NCBI RefSeq assembly: GCF_004786015.1
Contig: NZ_CP032096.1
Coordinates: forward strand, 992,001-1,056,000
From: Hydrogenovibrio crunogenus
GTDB taxonomy: Bacteria; Pseudomonadota; Gammaproteobacteria; Thiomicrospirales; Thiomicrospiraceae
Length of the DNA stretch: 64,000 nucleotides
Direction: 5' to 3'
Position 1 is the stretch's first letter. Every line of letters begins with the position of its first letter. Shown here piece by piece: positions 8,539-31,358 of this stretch. A model generated the notes under the pieces. It was not told where the DNA came from and ran no database searches. It saw only the letters and a program-made list of their open reading frames with translations. The position numbers and the translations under genes are program-made.

Positions 8539-8614
8539 GGGTCGTTAGCTCAGCTGGTAGAGCAGTTGGCTTTTAACCAATTGGTCGCGCGTTCGAATCG
8601 CGCACGACCCACCA
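8539..8614 (+). tRNA. tRNA-Lys (anticodon UUU), first copy
   Basis: A full cloverleaf can be drawn. The acceptor stem pairs GGGTCGT with ACGACCC and the discriminator is A. The anticodon stem GTTGG/CCAAT holds the loop CTTTTAA with anticodon TTT, and the T arm contains GTTCGAATC. CCA is encoded at 8612-8614. The 76-nt gene is identical to the copy at 8660. Confidence 0.97.
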
Positions 8615-8659: not shown

Positions 8660-8735
8660 GGGTCGTTAGCTCAGCTGGTAGAGCAGTTGGCTTTTAACCA
8701 ATTGGTCGCGCGTTCGAATCGCGCACGACCCACCA
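8660..8735 (+). tRNA. tRNA-Lys (anticodon UUU), second identical copy
   Basis: This copy has the same 76 bases as the first, including the encoded CCA, after a 45-base spacer that is not itself repeated. Only the first copy has an obvious promoter, so both probably come from one precursor. The run of T and pyrimidines after it (8736-8775) has no hairpin; the next strong hairpin is at 8857-8882. Confidence 0.97.
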
Positions 8736-26109: not shown

Positions 26110-27789
26110 ATGAGTCAAAACACGACAGTTGCAGTTGATAAACCGACAAACTTTATCCGAAACATCATTGATGAAGATCTTGCTACGCACAAATATAACA
26201 AGGTTCATACGCGCTTTCCACCAGAACCCAATGGTTATTTACATATTGGGCATGCGAAGTCGATCTGTTTGAATTTTGGGTTGGCTGAAGATTATCAAGG
26301 CGACTGCAATTTACGGTTTGATGACACGAATCCAGCCAAGGAAGATGTAGAGTATGTTGAGGCAATTAAAAAAGATGTGGCTTGGTTAGGCTTTAAATGG
26401 GCTGGAGAACCTTGTTATTCGTCTAATTATTTCCAAAAATTTCATGATTATGCTGTCGAGTTAATTAGTAAAGGCCTAGCGTATGTGTGTTTTTTGAATG
26501 CTGAAGAAACACGCGCTTACCGCGGAACCTTAACAGAGCCTGGTAAAGACAGCCCTTACCGCGAAACCTCGGTAGAAGAGAATCTCGCACTATTCGCCAA
26601 AATGAGAAATGGCGAATTTAAAGAGGGTGAATGTGTTTTGCGTGCCAAGATTGATATGGCGTCTTCTTTTATGTGTATGCGTGATCCGACGCTTTACCGA
26701 GTGCGATATGCCGAGCATCATCAAACAGGTAATACCTGGTGTATTTACCCGATGTATGATTTTGCGCACTGTATCTCCGACGCTATAGAAGGCGTGACGC
26801 ATTCACTTTGTACGTTGGAGTTCCAAGACAATCGCCGCCTATATGACTGGGTTTTAGAGCATTTAAATGATTTCAATAAACCGGACCGCCCATTCCAATA
26901 CGAATTTTCACGTTTAAACCTTGAATACACCGTGATGTCAAAACGCAAGTTGCACCAGTTGGTAGAAGACCAATTGGTGTTAGGTTGGAATGATCCGCGT
27001 ATGCCGACTATTTCGGGATTGCGCAGACGTGGTGTGACGCCTGCTGCGATTCGGGACTTTGCGGATCGCATTGGGATTTCAAAAGTAGACAGCATGACCG
27101 AAATGGGCATTTTGGAAGCCGCGATTCGAGACGATTTAAATGTTGTCGCTCCTAGAACAATGGGGGTTATTGATCCAATTAAAGTGGTGATTGAGAATTA
27201 TCCTGACAATGAAGTGGAATCCATCAATGCCCCAGTACACCCTCAGAATGAAGCAATGGGCAAACGTGAGATTTTCTTTGGAAAAGAACTGTATATTGAT
27301 CGCGCCGATTTTGTTGAAGAGGCGCCTAACCGAAAATGGCAAAGATTGGCACTAGATAAAGAAGTGCGATTACGTAATGCTTATATTGTGAAAGCTGAAC
27401 GTATGGAAACCGATGAGCATGGAAATGTCACTACGGTTTATTGTTCTTATGATCCTGATACGTTAGGGAAAAATCCCGCGGATGGTCGAAAAGTTAAAGG
27501 AGTCATTCACTTTGTGGAAGCTTCAAAAGCACTGCCGGCTGAATTCAGGCTTTATGATCGTTTGTTCACTGTGCCGAATCCAGCTAAAGAAGAGGATTTT
27601 GAAGCGGTGATTAACCCTGATTCTTTAATTATTAAACAAGGGTTTGTTGAGCCTTCAATGCAATTTGCAGAAAAAGAAACTGCTTACCAGTTTGAGCGTG
27701 AAGGGTATTTTTGCCGTGATAGTGAAGCGAATGAAGCCCTTGTTTTTAACAAGACCGTCGGATTAAGAGATACTTGGAGCCAAAAATAA
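26110..27789 (+). CDS. glnS: Glutamine-tRNA ligase
   Basis: GlnRS charges tRNA-Gln. The product is 559 residues from the ATG at 26110; a TTG two codons earlier (26104) is also possible because a GATAGG-like site lies 5-10 bases upstream. Class I signatures are present: [14 protein letters not shown] near residue 35 and VMSKRKL (the KMSKS equivalent) near residue 275. The C-terminal anticodon-binding beta domains follow. Presence of GlnRS means glutaminyl-tRNA is made directly, as in other gammaproteobacteria. The stop overlaps the cysS start in TAATG. Confidence 0.95.
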
Positions 27790-29159
27790 TGGCCTTGAAA
27801 ATTTATAATACTGAAACACGTCAGAAAGAAACCTTTACCCCTATTCAGCCGAACAAAGTCGGACTTTATGTCTGTGGCGTGACTGTTTATGACTATTGTC
27901 ATGTTGGCCATGCTCGGGTCATGGTCGTGTTTGATACGGTGGTACGCCATTTACGTTCATTAGGGTATGACGTGACCTATGTTCGAAATATAACCGATAT
28001 TGACGATAAGATCATTCAACGAGCATTGGAAAACAAAGAATCAATTCAATCTTTGACTTCTCGTTTTATTGATGCCATGCATGAAGATGAAACCGCATTG
28101 AACGTGCTGCGTCCTGATATGGAGCCGAAAGCGACAGAGTATATGGGTGAAATCGAAAGCATGATTTCAACCCTAATTGAAAAAGGTTTTGCTTATCCTG
28201 CGGACAATGGCGATGTGTATTTTCATGTCAAGTCTGATGAGGATTATGGACGCCTTTCTGGCAAAAATATTGAAGAATTAGAGTCTGGATCTCGAGTTGA
28301 AGTTAACTCGGTTAAGAAAGATCCGCTAGATTTTGTATTATGGAAAGCCTCCAAAGAGCATGAACCTGCATGGCAATCTCCTTGGGGAGAAGGGCGTCCA
28401 GGTTGGCATATTGAGTGTTCCGCTATGTCGACTAAGTGCCTAGGCAATCATTTTGACATTCACGGTGGAGGGCTGGATTTAAGTTTTCCACACCATGAGA
28501 ATGAAATTGCCCAATCTGAATGCGCCACTGGGGAACATTATGTGAACAGTTGGATGCATTGCGGGTTTGTTCGAATTGATGATGAAAAAATGTCTAAATC
28601 GCTTGGAAATTTTTTCACGATTCGAGAGGTGCTTAAGCAATATCATCCGGAAGTCATCCGCTATTTCTTACTGGCCAGTCATTATCGTAGCCCCGTTAAT
28701 TACTCGGAAGAGAATTTAGACGTTGCAAAGGCAAGTGTTGGACGCTTGTATTCTGCGTTGGAGTTGGTGCCAGCTGACCAAGTTGGGCCGGCGGAATCCA
28801 AGTTAGAAGAGGATTTCATGGCAGCCATGAATGATGACTTTAATACACCACAAGCGATGGCCGTTTTGTTTGAGCTGGCGAAAGAGGTTAATAAACAAAA
28901 ATCACCAGGCCTGGCAGCTTTGTTGAAGAAATTGGCCAATCAGATTGGTTTGTTAGAGCAAACTGCTGAAAATTTCTTTAAGTCGCAACCTTCAGATTCG
29001 GATTTAAGCGATGAAATGATTGAAGCGTTGATAGTTGAGAGAGCTGAAGCACGCAAAGCCAAAGACTTTTCAAGATCGGATGAGATTAGAGATGAGCTTT
29101 TAGCACAAGGCATTGAACTGTTAGACAGTGCTGAAGGAACCAGTTGGCGTAAGATTTAG
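27789..29159 (+). CDS. cysS: Cysteine-tRNA ligase
   Basis: CysRS charges tRNA-Cys. The 456-residue protein has the HIGH-type motif HVGHARV, the zinc ligands (Cys in YVCGVTVYD, Cys in HIECSAMS, His and Glu in [11 protein letters not shown]) and KMSKS in [10 protein letters not shown]. The start is ATG at 27789, sharing a base with the glnS stop. A glnS-cysS pair is also found in related bacteria. The decamer CCAGGCCTGG at 28905-28914 encodes Pro-Gly-Leu in the anticodon-binding helical region. A weak AGTAAG/CTTACT hairpin (29165-29182) follows the stop. Confidence 0.95.
28905..28914. repeat. CCAGGCCTGG decamer inside cysS
   Basis: This is a perfect copy in codon phase CCA GGC CTG (Pro-Gly-Leu), within [11 protein letters not shown] of CysRS. 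There is no extended hairpin around it. Confidence 0.9.
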
Positions 29160-29234: not shown

Positions 29235-29263
29235 TTGACAATATAAGTTTTTTCTAATAAAAT
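29235..29263 (+). promoter_or_regulatory. Sigma-70 promoter of the candidate small RNA
   Basis: A consensus -35 TTGACA (29235-29240) and a -10 TAAAAT (29258-29263) are exactly 17 bases apart. No gene start follows on this strand before the terminator at 29332, so the promoter must serve a non-coding transcript. Confidence 0.85.
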
Positions 29264-29269
29264 ACGCCT

Positions 29270-29363
29270 ATTCATGTTTCTTCATGAGTATCCTCCTCTG
29301 ATTATTTCTTGTAAAAAGAAATAATGTATTTAAAGCTCTAGTTGTCCCTAGAGCTTTTTTTTT
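29270..29363 (+). ncRNA. Candidate small regulatory RNA, about 94 nt, unassigned
   Basis: The transcript predicted from the promoter folds into three hairpins. The first is 29270-29289 (7 bp, one G-U, loop of 6). The second is 29301-29325 (perfect 10 bp, loop GTAAA). The third is a terminator at 29332-29357 (10 bp, loop of 6) ending in nine T. Between the first two lies an unpaired stretch with UCCUCCUC (29291-29298), complementary to the AGGAGG ribosome-site core. A long U tail and an exposed C-rich seed are typical of Hfq-dependent RNAs. No open frame longer than a few codons fits. I know no named family that matches. Confidence 0.7.
29332..29363. terminator. Terminator of the small RNA, shared with convergent slt
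   Basis: AAAGCTCTAG and CTAGAGCTTT pair around TTGTCC, followed by nine T (29355-29363). The A-rich left flank also lets it act for slt, whose stop is at 29367-29369 on the other strand. Confidence 0.85.
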
Positions 29364-29366
29364 GTC

Positions 29367-31358
29367 TTAAGATTGTGAGGAATCGCCTGTGTCATGAGCA
29401 GAGAGCGTTTTCGGTAAGCCAATCGGGTGCATAAAATTTTCCAAACGATCATACTTCTTATTCAACATGGATTTAAAAATCGTTGTATATTCTAAAACCG
29501 CTTTGACATATGCACGCGTTTCTGAGAAAGGGATTGTTTCAATCCATTGATCAGCTGCCATAACCGTATCTTCCGGAATCCATTGATCCACACGGTGTGG
29601 GCCGGCATTATAGGCAGCGGTGGCCAAAACACGACTGCCATTATATTTCTTATGTAGATAGCTTAAATAAGCGCTGCCCAGTTTGATGTTGGATTCTGGA
29701 CTGGTTAAACGAGTATATTGTCGTTTGTTGAAGCCCATTTTTCGACCAATGTAGCGCGCTGTTTTCGGCATCAGTTGCATCAATCCCACGGCCCCCACTG
29801 CGGAGCTGATGTTCGGAGAGAAAGCGCTTTCACGTCGAATCACGCCATATACCCATGCTGGGTCAATGGTGTTTTTGTTGGCTGCCTGTAAAACCGGCTG
29901 TTTGTAAGGGGTTGGAAAGCGCAAAGATAAATCATCCCATTTCTTGACCTTTGAAATGGTTTGAATGGCTAAGTTGTGCTGGTTCCAGTCGGACATGAAA
30001 TTGGCGATGGCTTCAAAGTCATCCTCATCAATGTGGTCGAGTAAATGATACCATTCCCGTTTCAAGCTTAACTTCCAGTTGATCGCAATCAGTTCTTGCA
30101 TCACTTTAAGTTGAGGATATTTTTCAACCATTTTGGTGAAGCTTTTTTTCTGACTGGGAGTTGGGTTGAACTGGTAGGGCTGCTTTAAACGGTCAGCGGA
30201 CATGAAACCATAAAAATTTCGTTTTTGAGCCAATGCTTTAAAAATTGGCAAGGCTTTTTTATTCTGATTCAGCTCGGATAATGCGCGTGCTTTCCAATAG
30301 CGCCAACGTGTCTCATTTTGTTGTTTTTCTGGCAATAACGCATACAAATCAAGATAGTTTACCCAGTTGGATTCTCTAATGGTCACTTGGAGTTCCCAGT
30401 CTAATGTTTTTTCATTTTTGCTGGCGCGGTCAATCTGAGCTAAATATTCACTGGCTTTGGGGTGATACTGATAAGCAAATCGCAAACTGATTTGGCTTTG
30501 TAGGCTCGCGAGTTCTTGGGTGTTTAAGCCATACTGCTCGGCACGTTTTTCCAACGTTTTTAATGCCAACTCTGGTTCTGTATAAGCTAATCTTTGTATT
30601 CCTTGTTTGAAGATAGCCTGGCGAATGACTGGCGAAATATACGCTGGAATGGCTCGAGTCACTTTTTTAGGGTTTTTATAAGTGTCGATCCAAAAATGTA
30701 ATGCTCGGCGTCCCATTTTCGATAAGTCGCGTCCAATCTTTTTGGCGTGTTTGATTTTTCCTTTTGTCATTGCCAGTTGGAGTTTTGACCAAACCATTGA
30801 ACCTGTAATCAACTTTTCTTTTCTAAGAAACCGTTTAACGGGCCGACAGTCTTTCGGTAACGTTATGTGTGTTTTCCAAAGAGTCTGCGCTTTCTTTCGA
30901 ATTTGGTCCGTTCGATTTCGAGCGATACTGGCTTGTATGAAATAGCACTTTAAAGACACAGCACGATACTCACCTTCTTGATAGTGTTTAAGATATTCAT
31001 CCCATTGATAGGTCCCAGCGAGATGGTGTAGCCATTTTGCTTTTAAGAAAAAGGGCAGTGGGCTATTAGGGGTATTATTGATGAATGATTCAATCACTGG
31101 ATTTGGAGTATCTTTAAAATGATATTTATAATCCAGATAAACCAAATATGGATAAAGAGGATAGTTTTTAAGTTGAGATTTGTATTTTGAGATTAAAGGA
31201 CGATCATTGGCTTTGATCGCCTCATAGGCATCGAGAAACTTTTTTTGATTCTCAGACAGGTTTTCAGAACGACTGGATGCATGAACCTGTTGGAAAGTTA
31301 CGCTAAGGGATATAAAGAGAAGTAATAGAAATTTCAATGTTCTCGTTGCAGAATGCAT
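29367..31358 (-). CDS. slt: Soluble lytic murein transglycosylase (Slt70-like)
   Basis: Slt cleaves peptidoglycan glycan strands to 1,6-anhydro products in the periplasm. The 663-residue protein has a signal peptide (about 1-27, ending VHA) and a long alpha-superhelical domain (about 40-450, many Trp/Arg helices). A C-terminal SLT catalytic domain carries the catalytic Glu in VIRRESAFSP, plus SAVGAVGLMQLMPKTA and AAYNAGPHRVD. The layout and length match E. coli Slt70. It lies 4 bases after mltD, so two lytic transglycosylases are co-transcribed. Confidence 0.93.
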   Translation of the reverse strand: MHSATRTLKFLLLLFISLSVTFQQVHASSRSENLSENQKKFLDAYEAIKANDRPLISKYKSQLKNYPLYPYLVYLDYKYHFKDTPNPVIESFINNTPNSPLPFFLKAKWLHHLAGTYQWDEYLKHYQEGEYRAVSLKCYFIQASIARNRTDQIRKKAQTLWKTHITLPKDCRPVKRFLRKEKLITGSMVWSKLQLAMTKGKIKHAKKIGRDLSKMGRRALHFWIDTYKNPKKVTRAIPAYISPVIRQAIFKQGIQRLAYTEPELALKTLEKRAEQYGLNTQELASLQSQISLRFAYQYHPKASEYLAQIDRASKNEKTLDWELQVTIRESNWVNYLDLYALLPEKQQNETRWRYWKARALSELNQNKKALPIFKALAQKRNFYGFMSADRLKQPYQFNPTPSQKKSFTKMVEKYPQLKVMQELIAINWKLSLKREWYHLLDHIDEDDFEAIANFMSDWNQHNLAIQTISKVKKWDDLSLRFPTPYKQPVLQAANKNTIDPAWVYGVIRRESAFSPNISSAVGAVGLMQLMPKTARYIGRKMGFNKRQYTRLTSPESNIKLGSAYLSYLHKKYNGSRVLATAAYNAGPHRVDQWIPEDTVMAADQWIETIPFSETRAYVKAVLEYTTIFKSMLNKKYDRLENFMHPIGLPKTLSAHDTGDSSQS

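Follow-up and report, generated by a model that had tools for sequence, protein, structure and literature searches.

A putative start-site-pairing small RNA between cysS and slt, conserved in one family of sulfur-oxidising gammaproteobacteria

Envelope small RNAs (sRNAs) of the MicL, RybB and MicA type repress small abundant lipoproteins and outer-membrane proteins and are sigma-E dependent. Yfr1 of cyanobacteria carries a conserved single-stranded motif between two stem-loops, is nearly ubiquitous in its lineage, mostly at one locus, and has two porins as demonstrated targets in Prochlorococcus MED4 (excerpts of PMC6778093). Alpha-r14/NfeR1 of rhizobia combines an ultraconserved anti-Shine-Dalgarno (anti-SD) motif with variable stems and pairs at translation start regions (excerpts of PMC10746234). 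CJnc230 of Campylobacter jejuni is 98 nt long; two stem-loops flank its single-stranded anti-SD sequence and it represses by binding ribosome binding sites (excerpts of PMC11187230).

The locus described here lies in the window, i.e. the whole stretch of 64,000 nucleotides that was analysed, in the Hydrogenovibrio crunogenus genome (G000; one contig of 2,453,259 bases). The neighbouring genes are presumably cysS and slt, names taken over from the initial annotation. They are convergent and the sRNA occupies the gap between them. Positions are those of the window.

27774-29159, + strand: cysS.
29235-29363, + strand: sRNA unit between cysS and slt; promoter, three hairpins, T-tract terminator.
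29235..29263, + strand: sigma-70 promoter, TTGACA, 17 bases, TAAAAT; 11 of 12 consensus positions; kept in homologues.
29243..29258, + strand: palindrome ATAAG-N6-CTAAT in the promoter spacer; candidate operator.
29270..29289, + strand: 5′ hairpin, 7 bp, loop UUUCUU (fold); near-invariant.
29274-29324, + strand: micro-ORF MFLHEYPPLIISCKKK, 16 codons, ATG at 29274.
29277..29297, + strand: core TTTCTTCATGAGTATCCTCCT, complement of SD-N6-AUG-AAG-AAA; proposed seed.
29291-29298, + strand: UCCUCCUC, within an unpaired stretch (fold of 29270-29363).
29301..29325, + strand: second hairpin, 10 bp (fold); none seen in the Sulfurivirga type or in the short form.
29332..29363, + strand: intrinsic terminator, 10-bp hairpin and T tract (scan, fold, covariation); nine T at 29355-29363.
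29367-31358, - strand: slt.

In the characters given in those excerpts, the sRNA resembles Yfr1 (single-stranded motif between stem-loops, lineage-wide occurrence, mostly one locus), CJnc230 (size, stem-loops around a single-stranded anti-SD stretch) and alpha-r14/NfeR1 (ultraconserved anti-SD motif, pairing at start regions, here predicted). CJnc230 differs by its anti-SD sequence, CCUU, and by its flagella-related targets, and in NfeR1 each of the three hairpins bears CCUCCUCCC, whereas here a single UCCUCCUC is found, in the linker. Unlike that of Yfr1, the conserved block includes the 5′ stem and a start-codon complement. Neither at gathering score nor among six weak matches up to E 10 did the Yfr1 model of Rfam match the sRNA; the related Yfr10 model scored 16.3 bits (cut-off, 43; E 5.4). 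The host phylum of Yfr1 is different and so, presumably, is its motif. C. jejuni also belongs to another phylum. Compared with the MicL, RybB and MicA type, the effect would be alike, but the promoter is of sigma-70 type. The Rfam 15 scan of the window gave no gathering-score match to the sRNA, the only matches at that level being two tRNAs; the best weak match to the sRNA was Phe_leader (26.3 bits, cut-off 55; E 0.015). As judged from sequence, the unit is a new sRNA family of an already known kind, found so far in one bacterial family.

The locus is almost certainly a real, stand-alone sRNA gene of about 95 nt: its sequence combines its own promoter and intrinsic terminator, a predicted noncoding transcript and a conserved seed. 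The scan of the region is by itself weak proof, since its counts are near expectation (promoter-like sites, 4 vs 3.1 expected; terminator-like sites, 1 vs 1.3 expected); conservation across genomes places the unit beyond chance. The consensus promoter claimed in the initial annotation was recovered. A spacer of 17 with 10-12 of the 12 consensus positions is found in 45 of 46 distinct copies (L017 scores 8). The claimed succession of hairpin, exposed stretch, 10-bp hairpin and terminator with nine T was also found by folding: the minimum free energy of 29270-29363 is -27.1 kcal/mol vs -9.2 (sd 2.5) for shuffled sequences (z -7.15), and none of 200 shuffles folds as stably.

Compensatory changes were found at 9 of the 10 pairs of the terminator helix and at 2 of the 9 pairs of the middle helix; there are none in the 5′ helix because it hardly varies. 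Over 46 distinct sequences, 91.6% of cells are paired (shuffled, 80.9%; slid, at most 54.5%) and the covariation score is 0.317 (shuffled, 0.112; slid, at most 0.075). Helices were taken from single-sequence folds and then counted on an alignment fitted to the model, so the pairing counts lean towards structure; RNAalifold on the raw alignment recovered the 5′ helix only. The covariance match of L054 (69-131) and eight short-form rows were left out of the count. Lack of promoter and stem conservation in relatives had been named in advance as evidence against the sRNA; both are conserved, and the promoter, the terminator covariation and the core together lend good support to the claim that this is a new sRNA gene whose seed is anti-SD.

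A DNA search of 55 relatives (E 0.1) gave matches in 38 genomes, 33 of them among the 34 genomes of the same family; the remaining five match promoter or hairpin pieces only, without the core. Among 30 loci from this search, cysS and slt both lie within the 1.5-kb flanks in 24 and at least one of them in 29. The covariance search that had been proposed as a check was run with a model built from 29 of these loci. It found the sRNA as a single copy in 51 of the 62 genomes of the family. Across 369 genomes of the class it gave four matches, all four in the same family; both runs used stricter filters, with which weak matches could be lost. The core pattern TTCTTCATGAGTATCC (at most one mismatch) is present in 54 of the 62 family genomes, a count that takes in the short-form genus, g2. 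An exact 18-mer scan of a collection of named species gave 63 records. In 30 of the 63 the 18-mer is accompanied by a T run and a -35-like word, both at the right distance; none of the other 33 has the pair. By title, these 30 records belong to Hydrogenovibrio, Thiomicrorhabdus, Thiomicrospira, Sulfurivirga and to Piscirickettsiaceae, Thiotrichales or unclassified gammaproteobacterial MAGs. In the collections searched, the sRNA is single-copy and confined to one family.

The short form of g2 is about 60 nt long, lies at a different locus and is without the middle hairpin. In L111-L114 (G011, G017, G028, G024), UAUCCUCU replaces UAUCCUCC. The sRNA was lost in a clade of small Thiomicrorhabdus-type genomes; in G412 and G413 cysS is still followed by slt, in an otherwise intact neighbourhood, and the sRNA is absent from the gap (L248, L253). 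In G414, G417 and G419 cysS is present and slt is not in the flank examined.

The core, which could be the seed, is ultraconserved: 20 of its 21 columns are invariant in a 29-row alignment and the remaining one is conserved at 90% or more. The near-invariant stretch of about 20 bases, UUUCUUCAUGAGUAUCCUCC, is the complement of GGAGGAUACUCAUGAAGAAA, i.e. GGAGG-N6-AUG-AAG-AAA: an SD sequence, six bases, AUG, AAG and AAA. As this is an ideal start site, the seed would be wider than an anti-SD stretch. The anti-SD sequence noted initially does lie in the conserved element, but the element is about 20 bases long, not the 8-base stretch alone, and constraint extends over the complement of the start codon and codons 2-4. 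The expectation that the exposed stretch would fit many messages holds for short pairing only: in a sample of 430 G000 genes (464 kb), AGGAG (about 5 bp) precedes 65, GGAGG 11, GGAGGA 2 and GGAGGAT none.

A mechanism can be proposed in which the unpaired UAUCCUCC would pair with GGAGGAUA SD sequences. The weak 5′ hairpin would then open, freeing its 3′ arm (CAUGAG) and loop (UUUCUU) to pair with the start codon and the Lys codons 2-3. With SD and start codon paired, 30S subunits would be unable to load and the messages would be repressed, probably with Hfq. The genome has hfq (PF17209, E 5.3e-29); the features seen in the sRNA that bear on Hfq binding are the poly-U tail and A/U-rich stretches only. 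That the sRNA blocks initiation by base pairing is quite probable from its sequence. Likely targets would be exported proteins beginning with MK or MKK, the first being a SAXB-like lipoprotein (start at G000:C1:1781218). The preferred reading as a whole, a trans-acting sRNA repressing the translation starts of exported proteins with this lipoprotein as first target, is given a probability of roughly 0.62. Pairing with start sites is likely; the messages that matter to the sRNA are candidates only.

L161:1501-1830 = G000:C1:1781218-1781547: SAXB-like small lipoprotein, 110 aa in G000.

Homologues of the lipoprotein were found in 54 of 60 family genomes, those of G011 and G017 being partial and weak; several are without the lipobox cysteine. 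The NCBIfam model SAXB (SoxAX-binding protein) matches 19 of the 23 tested of these 54 at E 0.001 (best, 1.3e-8). The G000 protein scores 28 bits, far under the curated cut-off of 95, and is therefore named SAXB-like only. It has no Pfam match, and its best E against solved structures is 0.11. A SoxK homologue was not recognised in Thioalkalimicrobium cyclicum, and the same is described for Thiomicrospira crunogena (excerpts of PMC4891895). Since SoxK is reported missing there, the SAXB-like protein is a candidate worth testing; it could be an unrecognised SoxK subunit.

Of 47 genomes that carry the long sRNA, 46 have GGAGGA just before the lipoprotein start, G399 having GGAGAA instead; none of the five assessable genomes without the sRNA or with the short form has it (G413, G414, G419, G011, G017). 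G023 (GGAGGA, no sRNA found) and G418 (no GGAGGA) were left unjudged, their assemblies having yielded no cysS. In the cysS tree, the absence of the sRNA and the short form are two independent events, with the SD deviating alike in both; with two independent pairs only, significance of the co-loss is unreachable (sign test, p 0.5). The strong SD may be kept merely for high expression.

The duplex energy of the lipoprotein start, -24.4, is reached by 3 of the 430 sampled G000 genes (4 of 448 when any ORF start is allowed); RNAduplex, used as the pairing proxy, ignores accessibility. When UCCUCC was fixed and the flanks were shuffled, the lipoprotein starts (44 distinct ones) were paired as well by 2 of 300 shuffled sRNAs; fixing CAU in addition raised this to 5 of 300. 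By genus, Hydrogenovibrio and Thiomicrorhabdus show the effect clearly; it is weak in g6 (Thiomicrospira; 23 of 100 decoys as good), g7 (Sulfurivirga; 34 of 100) and g5 (G014 type; 34 of 100). On 59 window genes only 1 of 100 decoys pairs as well as the core, so the lipoprotein signal is partly a general likeness to start sites. In the Thiomicrospira-type variant, inspection by eye showed no covarying changes of the sRNA linker and the lipoprotein SD. The chances that the lipoprotein is a true target appear evenly balanced on this evidence.

Other candidate targets were searched with GGAGGATACTCATGAAGA (at most three mismatches) in 39 family genomes. Of 117 sites, 38 are the sRNA itself; the reversed control gave 40, but it is not start-like and hence unfair for gene starts. 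Of the 79 non-self sites (at most 3 of 18 mismatched), 30 are at plausible gene starts: 15 of 20 chosen by eye, 15 of 56 others and none of the 3 first examined. Most of the 30 have a signal-peptide-like start by eye. Among them are the genes of the lipoprotein (4 genomes), SoxA (3 g6 genomes) and SoxH-related metallohydrolases (4 of g6); a protein resembling the latter was found in G013. Further ones encode a FadL-type channel (all 4 g2 genomes), c-type cytochromes (2 g2), OmpA (2 g7), a Gcw_chp porin and others. Family libraries were run on one member per named group: SoxA, SoxX, FadL, OmpA, Gcw_chp and cytochrome c passed curated cut-offs, and the SoxH-related model was not passed.

In all four g2 genomes, 15 to 17 of 18 bases at the FadL-type start are complementary to the g2 core. 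Energies are -24.7 to -29.9 kcal/mol vs a mean of -13.8 (sd 4.4) for 143 g2 genes, a background partly drawn by start-like patterns; a c-type cytochrome (-29.7) and another gene (-25.9) pair as well. The energy of the G000 orthologue (-11.9) is uninformative, its upstream start, set by the gene finder, being doubtful. The AGAGGAT start pattern has 36 sites in the four short-form genomes (control, 5). In the whole of G000, GGAGGATN2-7ATG occurs at 15 places, one of them the sRNA (reversed control, 5), six of which are gene starts: ureA, soxX, a gene for a 97-aa unnamed protein, the SAXB-like gene, hsp20 and sdhC. Two of these six belong to the SoxAX system by name or likeness, a point noticed after the fact. 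SoxX in G000, SoxA in the Thiomicrospira-type genus and the FadL-type channel in g2 are candidates for further targets; that SoxX and SoxA are true targets is doubtful on the pairing seen. G000 was also searched for a message fully complementary to the 18-nt core: the first pattern gave no gene start at up to three mismatches, and no gene start there complements the core with fewer than three. Moving the pattern by one base brought up the lipoprotein, at three mismatches.

Other explanations of the conserved unit were weighed. The region had been described as having no reading frame. This is nearly right, the frame being interrupted in several lineages in which the core persists, but a 16-codon frame does begin at the ATG. 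The conserved RNA could thus be the mRNA of this leaderless micro-ORF (MFLHEYPPLIIS...), alone or with a dual function: it starts 4-5 nt from the predicted 5′ end, begins with MFLHEYPPL in 44 of 49 rows, and its Thiomicrospira-type changes are partly synonymous. Wobble positions are, however, equally invariant, the frame is broken by indels in G399, G416 and L004/L005, and both the Sulfurivirga type and g2 lack the ATG, the core being retained in each case; loss of the frame with persistence of the core indicates constraint on the RNA and makes the coding explanation very improbable. A terminator shared by cysS and slt, with a promoter present by chance, would suit a gap between convergent genes, and the sRNA terminator would end cysS transcripts too. 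Such an origin, which is most improbable, leaves the invariant core and the promoter kept in nearly all copies unexplained, as well as the retention of the core by the short form at another locus. It is extremely improbable that the conserved element is on the minus strand, as a remnant gene start or mini-ORF (SD, ATG AAG AAA; MKKHE). That strand does have a perfect SD and start (L298) and a weak promoter-like site (9/12; 29315-29287), but transcription from the latter would begin no earlier than the ATG. The minus-strand frame is 5 codons long in 28 of 49 rows and ranges from 4 to 31 overall, with no common protein, and both the strong conserved promoter and the sole terminator-like site between 28500 and 30000 lie on the plus strand.

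It is unlikely that the unit is a real sRNA with a core directed at a protein or at some other RNA (as a decoy for an RNA-binding protein, a sponge or a generic mimic of a ribosome start) rather than at defined messages. In its favour, the 5′ stem is near-invariant along with the loop and linker, which exceeds the need of most base-pairing seeds, and no G000 message has a complement of the full core. Against it, the complement of the core reads exactly as SD, spacer, AUG and Lys codons, and 30 of the 79 near-matches lie at gene starts.

A broader proposal is that an sRNA with a seed antisense to a whole idealised start coordinates exported proteins of chemolithoautotrophs, with the thiosulfate-oxidising SoxAX cytochrome and the SoxK-like lipoprotein as core targets; this is tentative and rather unlikely. 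If it held, Sox sulfur oxidation would have its first RNA regulator and the order its first described sRNA, within the limits of the literature search; this limited search by title found no sRNA work on Hydrogenovibrio, T. crunogena or Thiomicrorhabdus and none on sRNA control of Sox. Should both SoxX and the SoxK-like protein prove to be targets, translational control of thiosulfate oxidation would become testable. The natural presence or absence of the sRNA, with a changed SD where it is missing, provides a ready test of sRNA-target coevolution, and the sRNA may open the way to studying RNA regulation in this family, whose members are sulfur-oxidising autotrophs.

The palindrome in the promoter spacer hints that transcription of the sRNA is regulated. 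Complementary bases occupy 163 of 235 position pairs across 47 distinct promoters vs 144.5 in shuffles, none of 1000 being as high; the register is the best of those scanned and was chosen before the shuffle. L017, in which the promoter was not recognised, was left out. By eye, AT[AT]AG-N6-CT[AT]AT is absent from the Thiomicrospira and Sulfurivirga types; it is found in most Hydrogenovibrio- and Thiomicrorhabdus-type copies. The two tRNA genes of the window are in tandem (8539-8611 and 8660-8732) and have identical Rfam scores.
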